Under the pieces are notes generated by a model, which was not told the origin of the DNA, ran no database searches, and worked only from the letters and a program-made list of their open reading frames with translations. Below, piece after piece: positions 2,367 through 57,180 of a DNA stretch of 64,000 nucleotides. Source of the stretch: Procambarus clarkii (Eukaryota > Arthropoda > Malacostraca > Decapoda > Cambaridae); contig NC_091172.1 of assembly GCF_040958095.1 (NCBI RefSeq), forward strand, positions 25,174,562 through 25,238,561, written 5' to 3'. How positions within the stretch are numbered: the stretch's first letter is position 1; every line of letters starts with the position of its first letter. Made by a program: the position numbers and the translations under genes.

Positions 2367-5145
2367 ATGAGGACCTTCACACTGGTGGTGCTGGCGGTGG
2401 TGGCTCTGACTGCCGCATCGGCTGAGGAAGCAGGGAAGGAGAAGAAAGCGGCTTCAGAGAACGATGGGAAATCCATCACCAAAACTGCCGCCCGGAGGGA
2501 AGACCTCCAAACGACTTGGAAGAGCCCTCAGGTCTACAGTTACAGGTCACCCGCCCAGGGAGCAGGCAGCGGAAGCATCTATCCCTCCAGTTACTATCCC
2601 AGCAACGTCATCCCCTCCAGCTACTATCCCAGCAACGTCATCCCTTCCAGCTACTATCCCAGCAACGGCATCCCCTCTAAGAACCCGTCCATCGTGCCTA
2701 CAGTGTATCCCTACACCCCACGGGTTGGGGACGGGTCACCAGAGGCCTTCACCGCCCGACGAGCCTCCTCCTACACCACTGCAGGGGGCAAGGTCTTCTT
2801 CGCTGAGGGAGTCACCCAGGTCTGTGTGCATTATTTTTCTTAGGTGTGCTTGCGTTGATTAGCCTCAAGCTCCTGAGCCCCACCTTCTAGCTACCAGGAG
2901 GTAGTTGCAATGACTTCCAAACCTCTTAGTCATTTCGTATTCATAACAACATTTAAGCTATGGATGGAGTTGGCCTCTGCATAAATACTTTCTCATTTTC
3001 CACTGCTTTGCGAGTGTGTGGGTGTTTACTTTCCTAACAGTTTTTTATATGACCGAGCTTAAGCTCATGGGGCCCCCGCCTTTCCAGTTGTTGGTCATCT
3101 AATACGACTCTCGTCCCTTTAGTTTTCTGTCATATCCACTCTTAAGACAAGAGATGGTGTAATCCTCTGCTAGATTCCCTTCTGACTGCTCTGATACATA
3201 AGAAGTGTTTCCTTGATTGATTGATAAAGATTAAGCCACCCAAGAGGTGGCATAGGCATGAATAGCCCGTAAGCGTTTCCTTGTATACCTGTGGCTGATC
3301 TGCTTGTCTAACGGCCTCTTTCTTATTCCCATGCTCCCTAGTGTTATCTGGGGAGATATCTCCCGTCACGCAGGGTGCAGTCGCATCTCCACAGATCTCC
3401 AGTATCATCTATTGATACTGGTAATGGCTCAAAAGGGCCACCACTTACCGGTTATTCATGCCCGTGTCACCTTTTGAGTGGCTTAATCTTTATCAATCAT
3501 CAGTGTTATTTATCTAATATAGTTATGCTCCCTGTGCCCCGCCCTGACACGGCGTCGTGCAGCAGGTCGGGTCAGGATGGAACACCGCCACCAGTGAGTT
3601 CCTCGCCCCTTCTTCAGGAGTCTACTTCTTCACCTTTGCTGCCATGTCCGACCGCTACACAAACTTTAGGTGAGTTGCACGCTTATTTATTCACACTTCA
3701 GGTGAGTTACACTCTGGTCTACACACACTTCAGGTGAGTTACACTCTGGTCTACACACACTTCAGGTGAGTTACACTCTAGTTTACACACACTTCAGGTG
3801 AGTTACACTCTGGTCTACACACACTTCAGGTGAGTTACACTCTAGTCTACACACACTTCAGGTGAGTTACACTCTGGTCTACACACACTTCAGGTGAGTT
3901 ACACTCTGGTCTACACACACTTCAGGTGAGTTACACTCTGGTCTACACACACTTCAGGTGAGTTACACTCTGGTCTACACACACTTCAGGTGAGTTACAC
4001 TCTGGTCTACACACACTTCAGGTGAGTTACACTCTGGTCTACACACACTTCAGGTGAGTTACACTCTGGTTTACACACACTTCAGGTGAGTTACACTCTG
4101 GTTTACACACACTTCAGGTGAGTTACACTCGGGTCTACACACACTTCAGGTGAGCTGTTCTCTTTTATTACAAATTCACAAAGGTCTTCAAAGGATGAGC
4201 TTCATTTGTACGAGACCTGGAGAAGCTTTCCCCATAAAGGAACCTAGGACGGGGGGAATAAACATTACTCACAATTATTGTTTGTTTGTCATATTTTTTC
4301 CAAATATGCTGATTGTTTTCAGTTCACCTACCTGCAGATGCTACACATACACGGAATGAGAACTTTCTGACCTCTCTGTACCTCAGCTGATTTTCCAGTT
4401 CTCACCTCTGACCTCCCGTTCGGTATTTTCCCCCTTTACTTGGAATTATTTGTTATTGTCCACCTTATATATTTATTTTTGTATCTTGTACATCTGAATC
4501 ATGTCCCCTCTGGCTCTTCTCTTCTCTTCTCCAGTGCTTAAAGCAGGTCTCTCCGTCTGTTTTCGTAGATCAGTCTTATAATTTCGATATCAGTCTTGTG
4601 CACTGATAACTTCTCAGTCTTATGTTGACCAATCCACATACTAGAAAATGAAGGGACGACAACGTTTCGGTCCGTTCTGGACTATTCTCAAGTCGACCTG
4701 AGAATGGTCCAGGACGGACCGAAACGTCGTCGTCCCTACATTTTCTAGTGTGTGGATTGGTCAACATACTTCAGCCACGTTATTGTGACTCGTCGCCTTC
4801 TCAATCTTATATTTGTGTTTTACAGGAACCCAAGCTGGGTTCCTGTTTGGCGCCGCATACCCGAGTACTGACCTGACATAGGCTGTGTATGCATATAGGA
4901 ACACTTGCTGCTGCAGCGCCGATACAAATATCTTACCCCCGTGTTGCAGGGTGAGTCTGATCCACAACGGTGCGGAGGTGGTGAGCGCCTACGGCGACGC
5001 CGACGGGTACCAGATGGGCAGCCAGAGCGCCGTCATCCGCCTCAACGCTGGAGATCGAGTCTACCTCCAGCTCCAGGAAGGACGACTCTATGACGTGTCT
5101 TCTTCCAGGGCCTATAACTCTTTCTCCGGCTTCAAGGTCCTCTGA
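2367..5145 (+). CDS. Secreted C1q-domain protein, 3 coding exons
   Basis: The coding exons are 2367-2819, 3566-3669 and 4950-5145; they join in frame to 250 aa. Exon 1 probably begins at an acceptor (TTTCAG, ending 2354). I chose the ATG at 2367 because it starts a classical signal peptide (MRTFTLVVLAVVALTAASA); an in-frame ATG at 2325 lies upstream of that acceptor. Residues ~72-105 are Ser/Tyr/Pro-rich with three copies of PSSYYPSNVI or a close variant. Residues ~126-250 form a complete C1q fold: an AFTARR start, then WNTATSEFLAPSSGVYFFTF, RVSLIHNGAEV and the C-terminal SFSGFKVL. The intron phases are 0 and 2. C1q proteins are secreted, usually trimeric pattern-recognition or adhesion molecules. 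There is no collagen stretch, so it resembles the short ghC1q type. The exact ligand cannot be read from sequence. Acceptor 3562 instead of 3565 would add one Gln. Intron 2 holds a striking donor-site array and a nested foldback. Confidence 0.88.
3222..3500. repeat. Inverted pair of a dispersed repeat inside C1q intron 1
   Basis: The block GGGCTATTCATGCCC ... GGTGGCTTAATCTTTATCAATCA occurs on the minus strand at 3222-3272 and on the plus strand at 3448-3500. More copies lie at 12967-13021 and 13127-13178. The facing pair could form a long stem in the intron RNA. Confidence 0.7.
3670..4149 (+). repeat. 32-bp tandem array, 15 units, each carrying a donor-like site
   Basis: The unit runs from GTGAGTTACACTC to CACACACTTCAG, exactly 32 bp. 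The first unit begins at the authentic exon-2 donor (exon ends 3669, GTGAGT at 3670), and each later unit begins at 3670+32k up to 4150. Every junction reads CAG|GTGAGT, which matches the 5' splice-site consensus. The first unit is the most divergent (TAG|GTGAGTTGC), while the inner copies are nearly identical, differing mainly at TGGTCT/TAGTCT/TGGTTT. Confidence 0.95.
4622..4794. mobile_element. Foldback dimer related to the Penelope-like termini
   Basis: Two arms of about 73 bp, 4622-4695 and 4696-4768, are inverted copies of one another with only a few mismatches; the centre is AGTCGACCTGAG. The right side continues into a further 26 bp (TTCAGCCACGTTATTGTGAC) that is found in related units at 25808-25978 and 45356-45459. 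The element interrupts a minus-strand LINE fragment (about 4795-4910, reading AYTAYVRSVLGYAAP) just upstream of C1q exon 3. Confidence 0.85.
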
Positions 5146-16250: not shown

Positions 16251-16454
16251 GTAAGGACTTGGGGCTTTGTGGGGCACGTTTGCTGGCCGGCGTCTTGGGA
16301 GACGGAGGTCAGGGCTGGGTGATGTGTGTTCATTGATCTTGTGTAGCGGCTCCGGGCAGAGGGGGCCCCAGCGGGCCCTAAACTGGGCTCCCCCGGGCCT
16401 CCCTCAGGGGTCACGGTGCAAGAACATGCTCTAATTCTCGGATCCTCCCCCCCG

Positions 16455-17855
16455 GTCAGTGGAGGCTGGCCTCCCCCCGGTCAGTGGAGGCTGTCCTCCC
16501 CCCCGGTCACTGGAGGCTGTCCTCCCCCCCGTCACTGGAGGCTGTCCTCCCCCCGGTCACTGGAGGCTGTCCTCCTCATGGTCACTGGAGGCTGTCCTCC
16601 CCCAGGTCACTGGAGGCTGTCCTCCTCCTGGTCACTGGAGGCTGTCTTCCCCCAGGTCACTGGAGGCTGTCCTCCTCCTGGTCACTGGAGGCTGTCCTCC
16701 CCCTGGTCACTGGAGACAGACCTTCCCCGGCCAGTGAAGGCTGTCCTCCCCTGGTCAGTGAAGGCTGTCCTTCCCCTGTCAATGAAGGCTGTCCTCCCCC
16801 TGTCAATGAAGGCTGTCCTTCCCCGGTCACTGAAGGCTGTCCTCCCCCGGGCAATGAAGGCTGTCCTCCCCCGGGCAATGAAGGCTGTCCTCCCCCGGGC
16901 AATGAAGGCTGTCCTCCCCCGGGCAATGAAGGCTGTCCTCCCCTGGTCAGTGAAGGCTGTCCTTCCCCTGTCAATGATGGCTGTCCTCCCCGTCAATGAA
17001 GGCTGTCCTCCCCCTGTCAATGAAGGCTGTCCTCCCCCGGTCAATGAAGGCTGTCCTCCCCCGGTCACTGAAGGCTGTCCTTCCCCGGTCACTGAAGGCT
17101 GTCCTCCCTCGGTCACTGAAGGCTGTCCTCCCTCGGTCACTGAAGGCTGTCCTCCCCCGGGCAATGAAGGCTGTCCTCCCCTGGTCAGTGAAGGCTGTCC
17201 TTCCCCTGTCAATGATGGCTGTCCTCCCCGTCAATGAAGGCTGTCCTCCCCCTGTCAATGAAGGCTGTCCTCCCCCGGTCATGTCACTGAAGGCTGTCCT
17301 CCCCCGGTCACGGCAGGCTGTCCTCCCCTCCCTCGGTCTGTGAAGGCTGTCCTCCCTCGGTCACTGAAGGCTGTCCTCCCTCGGTCACTGAAGGCTGTCC
17401 TCCCTCGGTCACTGAAGGCTGTCCTCCCTCGGTCACTGAAGGCTGTCCTCCCTCGGTCACTGAAGGCTGTCCTCCCTCGGTCACTGAAGGCTGTCCTCCC
17501 TCGGTCACTGAAGGCTGTCCTCCCTCGGTCACTGAAGGCTGTCCTCCCCCGGTCACGGCAGGCTGTCCTCTCCTCCCTCGGTCTGTGAAGGCTGTCCTCC
17601 CTCGGTCACTGAAGGCTGTCCTCCCTCGGTCACTGAAGGCTGTCTTCCCTCGGTCACTGAAGGCTGTCCTCCCCCGGTCACGGCAGGCTGTCCTCTCCTC
17701 CCTCGGTCTCTGAAGGCTGTCCTCCCTCGGTCACTGAAGGCTGTCCTCCCTCGGTCACTGAAGGCTGTCCTCTCTCGGTCACTGAAGGCTGTCCTCCCTC
17801 GGTCACGGCAGGCTGTCCTTCCCCGGACACGGCATGTTGTCCTTCCCCAGTCTGA
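16455..17855 (+). repeat. 24-25 bp GC-rich minisatellite in U2SURP intron 1
   Basis: The unit GTCACTGAAGGCTGTCCTCC plus CTCG or variants repeats about 57 times. Zones differ: GTCACTGGAGG units at 16455-16730, TCAATGAAGG units at 16770-17030, and near-identical GTCACTGAAGG units from 17340. A higher-order repeat of about 240 bp is visible because the TCAATGATGGCTGTCCTCC block recurs at 16970 and 17210. Long open frames on both strands are an artefact of the 24-bp period. Confidence 0.97.
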
Positions 17856-19110: not shown

Positions 19111-51360
<32,250 letters not shown>

Positions 51361-55850: not shown

Positions 55851-55898
55851 TGCCGCAAACGCTATGCGTGCTAGTACAAGACTGTAAGAATGTAAGGG

Positions 55899-57180
55899 TG
55901 TGTGGCTGTGGAGGGCGTGTTGCTGTGGAGGGTGTGTGGCTGTGGAGGGCGTGTTGCTGTGGAGGGTGTGTGGCTGTGGAGGGCGTGTTGCTGTGGAGGG
56001 TGTGTGGCTGTGGAGGGCGTGTTGCTGTGGAGGGCGTGTTGCTGTGGAGGGTGTGTGGCTGTGGAGGGTGTGTGGCTGTGGAGGGCGTGTTGCTGTGGAG
56101 GGCGTGTTGCTGTGGAGGGTGTGTGGCTGTGGAGGGCGTGTTGCTGTGGAGGGCGTGTTGCTGTGGAGGGTGTGTGGCTGTGGAGGGCGTGTTGCTGTGG
56201 AGGGCGTGTTGCTGTGGAGGGTGTGTGGCTGTGGAGGGTGTGTGGCTGTGGAGGGCGTGTTGCTGTGGAGGGCGTGTTGCTGTGGAGGGCGTGTTGCTGT
56301 GGAGGGTGTGTGGCTGTGGAGGGTGTGTGGCTGTGGAGGGCGTGTTGCTGTGGAGGGCGTGTTGCTGTGGAGGGCGTGTTGCTGTGGAGGGTGTGTGGCT
56401 GTGGAGGGCGTGTTGCTGTGGAGGATGTGTGGCTGTGGAGGGCGTGTGGCTGTGGAGGGTGTGTGGCTGTGGAGGGTGTGTGGCTGTGGAGGGCGTGTTG
56501 CTGTGGAGGGCGTGTTGCTGTGGAGGATGTGTGGCTGTGGAGGGTGTGTGGCTGTGGAGGGTGTGTGGCTGTGGAGGGCGTGTTGCTGTGGAGGGTGTGT
56601 GGCTGTGGAGGGCGTGTTGCTGTGGAGGGCGTGTTGCTGTGGAGGATGTGTGGCTGTGGAGGGTGTGTGGCTGTGGAGGGTGTGTGGCTGTGGAGGGCGT
56701 GTTGCTGTGGAGGATGTGTGGCTGTGGAGGGCGTGTTGCTGTGGAGGATGTGTGGCTGTGGAGGGCGTGTGGCTGTGGAGGGTGTGTGGCTGTGGAGGGT
56801 GTGTGGCTGTGGAGGGCGTGTGGCTGTGGAGGGCGTGTGGCTGTGGAGGGCGTGTGGCTGTGGAGGGCGTGTGGCTGTGGAGGGCGTGTGGCTGTGGAGG
56901 GCGTGTGGCTGTAGAGGGTGTGTGGCTGTGGAGGGCGTGTGGCTGTGGAGGGCGTGTGGCTGTGGAGGGCGTGTGGCTGTGGAGGGCGTGTGGCTGTGGA
57001 GGGTGTGTGGCTGTGGAGGGCGTGTGGCTGTGGAGGGCGTGTGGCTGTGGAGGGCGTGTGGCTGTAGAGGGCGTGTGGCTGTAGAGGGCGTGTGGCTGTA
57101 GAGGGCGTGTGGCTGTAGAGGGTGTGTGGCTGTGGAGGGTGTGTGGCTGTAGAGGGCGTGTGGCTGTAGAGGGCGTGTAA
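55899..57180. repeat. 17-bp GC-rich minisatellite, ~75 units
   Basis: Units are GCGTGTTGCTGTGGAGG, GTGTGTGGCTGTGGAGG and GCGTGTGGCTGTGGAGG. The TTGC variant is mixed in only up to about 56740; TGGC units dominate after that, and GTAGAGG units are confined to about 57060-57180. Because 17 is not divisible by three and the unit lacks stops, all three plus frames and two minus frames stay open for 1-1.5 kb. These are not genes. Confidence 0.97.

Follow-up and report, generated by a model that had tools for sequence, protein, structure and literature searches.

A splice-donor minisatellite at a predicted exon–intron junction of a C1q-domain gene, compared with lancelet 'mirage' minisatellites

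Introduction

Minisatellites that repeat an exon–intron boundary have been described in lancelets, where such 'mirage' minisatellites have been reported in Adh3 and in the globin genes BflGb6 and BflGb9 (PMC3087553), to which troponin C and PGBD5 were added (PMC3902484). In the excerpts of these papers used here, many units carry AG/GT splice signals, the boundary units of the BflGb6 mirage escape homogenization (PMC3087553), the data for Adh3 and the globins are taken to speak against any interference with regular splicing (PMC3087553), and aberrant mRNA is reported not to arise from the mirages of Adh and troponin C (PMC3902484). A second related case is the human interferon-induced 6-16/IFI6 minisatellite, in which, as far as the excerpted account goes, two downstream repeat units act as splice donors and three mRNA species encode different isoforms (Turri, Cuin and Porter, 1995). 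In the Rogers model, as told in part of PMC3087553, introns are gained when proto-splice sites of the AG/GT type are duplicated in tandem. Here we describe an array of 16 splice-donor sequences, set at exactly 32 nt from one another, in a predicted C1q-domain gene of Procambarus clarkii; it lies in a stretch of 64,000 nucleotides of contig NC_091172.1, referred to below as the window, in which all positions are numbered from the first letter. The array is most readily read as a neutral minisatellite derived from the junction of exon 2 and intron 2, with the first donor favoured and the use of the downstream copies, or decoys, a minor leak to non-productive mRNA; we give this reading a probability of about 0.72.

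Structure of the Array

Sixteen GTGAG sites follow one another in exact 32-nt phase at 3670, 3702, 3734 and so on up to 4150, as an earlier note on this DNA had reported, and all 16 read AG|GTGAG. With spacings of 10–100 allowed, this is the longest chain of equally spaced GTGAG in the window, and no chain longer than 2 arose in 100 dinucleotide shuffles of it. The sequence is TAG|GTGAGTT at the putative authentic donor (3670), CAG|GTGAGTT at the 14 inner sites (3702–4118) and CAG|GTGAGCT at 4150.

The earlier note placed the start of the array exactly at the donor base; its left edge lies 15 nt further upstream, inside exon 2. Tandem Repeats Finder (TRF) delimits the array at 3655–4154 (period 32, 15.6 copies, 95% matches, no indels), and the final 15 nt of exon 2 (3655–3669, plus strand; CTACACAAACTTTAG) are identical to the end of the unit (CTACACACACTTCAG) at 13 of 15 positions. 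In a scan of 63,481 plus-strand positions outside the array, 3655 included, this exonic segment was the only one to score 13/15, the next best score being 12, at one position. This match argues that whole splice junctions were copied and not the intron alone, so that the repeat unit would comprise 15 nt of exon and 17 nt of intron. The earlier suggestion that the array has its origin at the splice site is supported.

The units differ in their degree of divergence. Unit 0 (3670–3701), which carries the putative authentic donor, departs from the consensus at 7 of 32 positions, all within positions 8–22, and units 1–14 (3702–4149), each with its own donor, are nearly identical (6 differences in 448 positions), the variant units 3, 5, 12, 13 and 14 being scattered through the array. 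After the last in-phase copy, GTGAGC at 4150–4155, the array passes into single-copy intron, and likeness to the unit disappears shortly beyond 4154. No close copy of the unit was found elsewhere in the window, the best match on either strand being 19/32, a value for which no null was computed. The exact 22-nt unit pattern had no matches in prokaryotic contigs and none in viral contigs, sets that are uninformative here. A 560-nt piece from 3601 onwards has a predicted folding energy of -113.6 kcal/mol, computed without a control and not used as evidence.

The Host Gene

The exon structure of the C1q gene was inferred from reading frame, splice signals and homology. The first coding exon (2367–2819, plus strand) would begin with the ATG at 2367, has a start that by eye resembles a signal peptide, and would end at the donor CAG|GTCTGT at 2820. 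The C1q domain would be divided between exon 2 (3566–3669, 104 nt, ending in ACTTTAG), with its first half, and exon 3 (4950–5145), with its second half and the stop codon. Joined, these exons form an open frame of 250 amino acids, in which the Pfam family C1q (PF00386) is found at residues 127–247 with 68.9 bits against a cut-off of 23.7 (E 6.1e-19); the sole other family listed for the product, BclA_C, falls below its own cut-off. In the cerebellin-1 alignments that were printed, the motif VSL..NG past the junction of exons 2 and 3 is in register, and the closest gap lies four residues before the junction. The open frame, the domain and these alignments together support 3670 as the authentic donor of exon 2. 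An acceptor-like TTTCAG upstream of the ATG, ending at 2354, makes an untranslated exon further upstream likely.

Two further observations concern the exons themselves. The first coding exon contains an in-frame 30-bp minisatellite (2583–2677) coding for SSYYPSNVIP-like repeats. Exon 3 opens with G|GTGAGT (4949–4956), so that the spliced mRNA would read AGG|GTGAGT, a donor-like sequence one base past the junction; the genomic site has a predicted duplex energy with U1 of -10.1 kcal/mol.

Predicted Consequences of Decoy Use

The predicted energy of the duplex with the 5' end of U1 is -10.6 kcal/mol for the authentic donor, -12.2 for the inner copies, -11.1 for the last copy and -14.0 for an ideal site, and the 11 bases concerned are identical in all 14 inner copies. 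The earlier proposal that the inner copies fit better than the authentic site is thus borne out at the level of predicted pairing.

The predicted product of decoy use is the same in every case. Exon 2 ends in AG and a retained donor reads G TGA, which creates AGG TGA; for this reason any of the 15 decoys, joined to exon 3, gives one identical protein of 186 amino acids ending in SDRYTNFR. With decoy 1 the new junction would follow this stop at a distance of 28 nt, and with decoys 2–15 at distances of 60 to 476 nt. The earlier note had supposed that decoys might add peptide inserts and that any of them would change the frame. Inserts are excluded by the immediate stop, which all 15 decoys encounter after residue 186, and the matter of frame is moot for the same reason; decoys at 3, 6, 9, 12 and 15 units would in any case preserve it. 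Cells contain U1 in great excess over any single pre-mRNA, and on such general grounds the titration of U1 by the array, also proposed earlier, was dismissed as implausible.

Comparison with Known Systems

Judged from the sequence, the array is a further case of the layout known from lancelet mirages. Its units span exonic and intronic sequence of a boundary, itself defined by frame and homology, they carry AG/GT splice signals as many lancelet units do, and the homogenized inner units (6/448) are flanked by a diverged boundary unit (7/32), much as the boundary units of BflGb6 are described. The 32-bp unit falls within the 10–72 bp range quoted for lancelet Adh3 in the excerpt of that work. 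The array occupies the donor side in about 15.6 short units, whereas the excerpted description gives units of 150–160 bp for BflGb6, on the acceptor side, and for BflGb9, on the donor side. It further differs from the lancelet mirages in its host, a C1q-domain gene, and in its predicted U1 pairing, which for each decoy is stronger than for the authentic donor. The human 6-16/IFI6 case is said to yield different isoforms, whereas here every decoy is predicted to lead to an immediate stop. As in the Rogers model, duplicated AG|GT sequence creates donor- and acceptor-like sites; here, however, the intron would have existed beforehand and its donor been multiplied, with no new intron in evidence. 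A literature search on crayfish intron minisatellites and splicing returned nothing on the subject by title, and we make no claim beyond this that such arrays are unreported in arthropods.

Origin and Probable Behaviour of the Array

A 32-nt block of the C1q junction, 15 nt exonic and 17 nt intronic, would have been duplicated in tandem, and the array would then have expanded through slippage or unequal exchange, every unit carrying a complete 5' splice site. Full-length protein could be made only from the first donor copy, which, as the exon-defining one, would serve most of the mRNA, both position and exon definition favouring it. Splicing from a downstream donor would occasionally give an mRNA whose reading frame closes at Arg186, midway through the C1q domain, and such an mRNA would be degraded or yield a short protein; the decoys would cause a small loss depending on copy number. 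Since all decoys would truncate the protein at 186 amino acids, the persistence of an intact gene points to sufficient use of the first donor. The inner donors would be passengers, alike through recent expansion and not as selected decoys. None of the six differences among units 1–14 lies inside the 9-nt donor, an outcome with a chance of 0.14 if the differences are independent, and the corresponding chance for unit 0 is 0.07; such values provide no evidence for selection on the inner donors.

Minisatellites are also frequent in this DNA. Eleven arrays chosen from the TRF output together occupy 5,192 of the 64,000 bases of the window (8.1%), from which it may be gathered that this genome readily makes minisatellites, and an array hitting a junction needs no special cause. 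It is plausible that a minisatellite came to lie on the junction by chance, and genome-wide such a hit would probably be unsurprising. Among the 11 arrays, AGGTRAG occurs in this one and in none of the other 10, as expected if the unit derives from the donor itself.

Several points weigh against this account. All 15 decoys are predicted to pair with U1 more strongly than the authentic donor, and in DOK7, whose donors compete, the intron-proximal site is the main one according to the part of the report used here (PMC5585400), which makes appreciable decoy use quite possible. The globin paper, in the same excerpt as above, says that AG/GT signals in the repeats could serve as cryptic splice sites (PMC3087553), and the C. 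elegans minisatellite CeRep25B is described, in the excerpt of its report, as over-represented near alternative splicing regions (PMC4039745). The position of the junction is itself touched by one of the three printed alignments to C1q-subunit domains, which has a two-residue gap immediately before it. Finally, the ancestral single-copy intron is not clearly recognizable at the right edge of the array: the edge's ungapped match to unit 0 (8/16) is reached at 2,866 of 63,383 positions, and its local alignment score by 5.7% of shuffles.

Alternative Explanations

Were the decoys often used, the array could act as a length-dependent brake, in which each added unit raises the amount of non-productive mRNA with the stop and lowers that of C1q protein; copy number would then set the level of expression. 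The predicted strength of the decoys, the identical stop at 186 amino acids with its distances of 28 nt and of 60–476 nt to the junction, and the reported donor use in 6-16/IFI6 all speak for it, and on account of the DOK7 and C. elegans findings it is retained as the main rival. It is nevertheless rather unlikely, as the lancelet arrays of such layout were reported, in the excerpts cited above, without disturbance of regular splicing (PMC3087553; PMC3902484), and the inner donors bear no sign of selection. The array itself might also be misassembled, in its copy number or as a whole. Short, near-identical units are easily miscounted, and, according to the excerpt, the lancelet draft includes a mirage that looks aberrantly assembled (PMC3087553); the interspersed variant units and the diverged first unit argue that the array exists, even though the exact number of units is uncertain, and an artefact is accordingly held to be highly improbable.

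A chain of zero-length recursive exons, in effect a self-erasing splice ladder, would be another way to accommodate the decoys. Each unit ends in CTTCAG and the next begins with GTGAG, which places AG|GT at every unit boundary; an mRNA spliced from decoy k would retain 32k nt that themselves form a GT-AG intron, from the authentic donor to the AG of the decoy, and a second splicing step would remove this leftover and restore the correct junction, making decoy use reversible from about two units on. At the inner acceptors that were scored (the ends of units 1, 4 and 14, out of 14), 11–12 of 18 bases are pyrimidines, and a branch-point-like YTNAY motif occurs at only three places in the 14 inner units. 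Since 11 of these 14 units are without one, acceptor use is doubtful for most of them. The AG at 3701, at the end of unit 0, stands apart as the best acceptor-like site of the array among those scored, with 14/18 pyrimidines and three YTNAY motifs. The test is a weak one, as the acceptors of the gene that were scored (ending at 2354, 3565 and 4949) have one YTNAY nearby each and one of them has just 8/18 pyrimidines. These results are compatible with the ladder and do not support it, and we regard it as very unlikely. Least probable of all is a protective role. U1 is known to guard transcripts against premature 3' ends, a function called telescripting, and the U1 sites of the array might similarly shield the transcript from 3' end formation at the AATAAA at 4257–4262, a candidate intronic poly(A) signal on the plus strand about 100 nt past the array (107 nt past the last donor copy) that may well be there by chance. 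The 15 U1-complementary sites beyond the authentic donor do lie upstream of this motif, and a GT-rich stretch follows it. A single donor suffices for U1 binding, however, and the 54 AATAAA on the plus strand of the window correspond to about one per 1,280-nt intron by chance; between 3670 and 5300 there are two, at 4257 and 5251.

Other Repeats and Elements in the Window

Both introns of the gene hold inverted repeats. In intron 1, arms of 56 nt (3218–3499), 88% complementary and separated by 170 nt, resemble a miniature inverted-repeat transposable element (MITE), and in the part of intron 2 that separates the array from exon 3, two abutting 89-nt arms (4606–4783; 85% complementary, no spacer) are foldback-like. 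Large minisatellites lie at 16449–17852 (a 24-bp unit repeated 57 times, PPVTEGCP-like if read in frame) and at 55895–57178 (a 17-bp unit repeated 75 times, open in several frames). On the minus strand, a stop-to-stop frame at 32469–33041 resembles a remnant of a non-long-terminal-repeat (non-LTR) reverse transcriptase, with an FADD motif of the kind found in such enzymes.

Concluding Remarks

The C1q array amounts to a natural competition experiment, in which 14 near-identical copies, and then one variant copy, are set at fixed spacing behind an authentic donor. Donor usage within it would show how far position overrides the fit to U1, and copy-number variants among individuals would tell harmless passengers from expression dials. 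Provided that the host lies outside the lancelets, the array suggests that junction minisatellites of the mirage type occur in other animals too.
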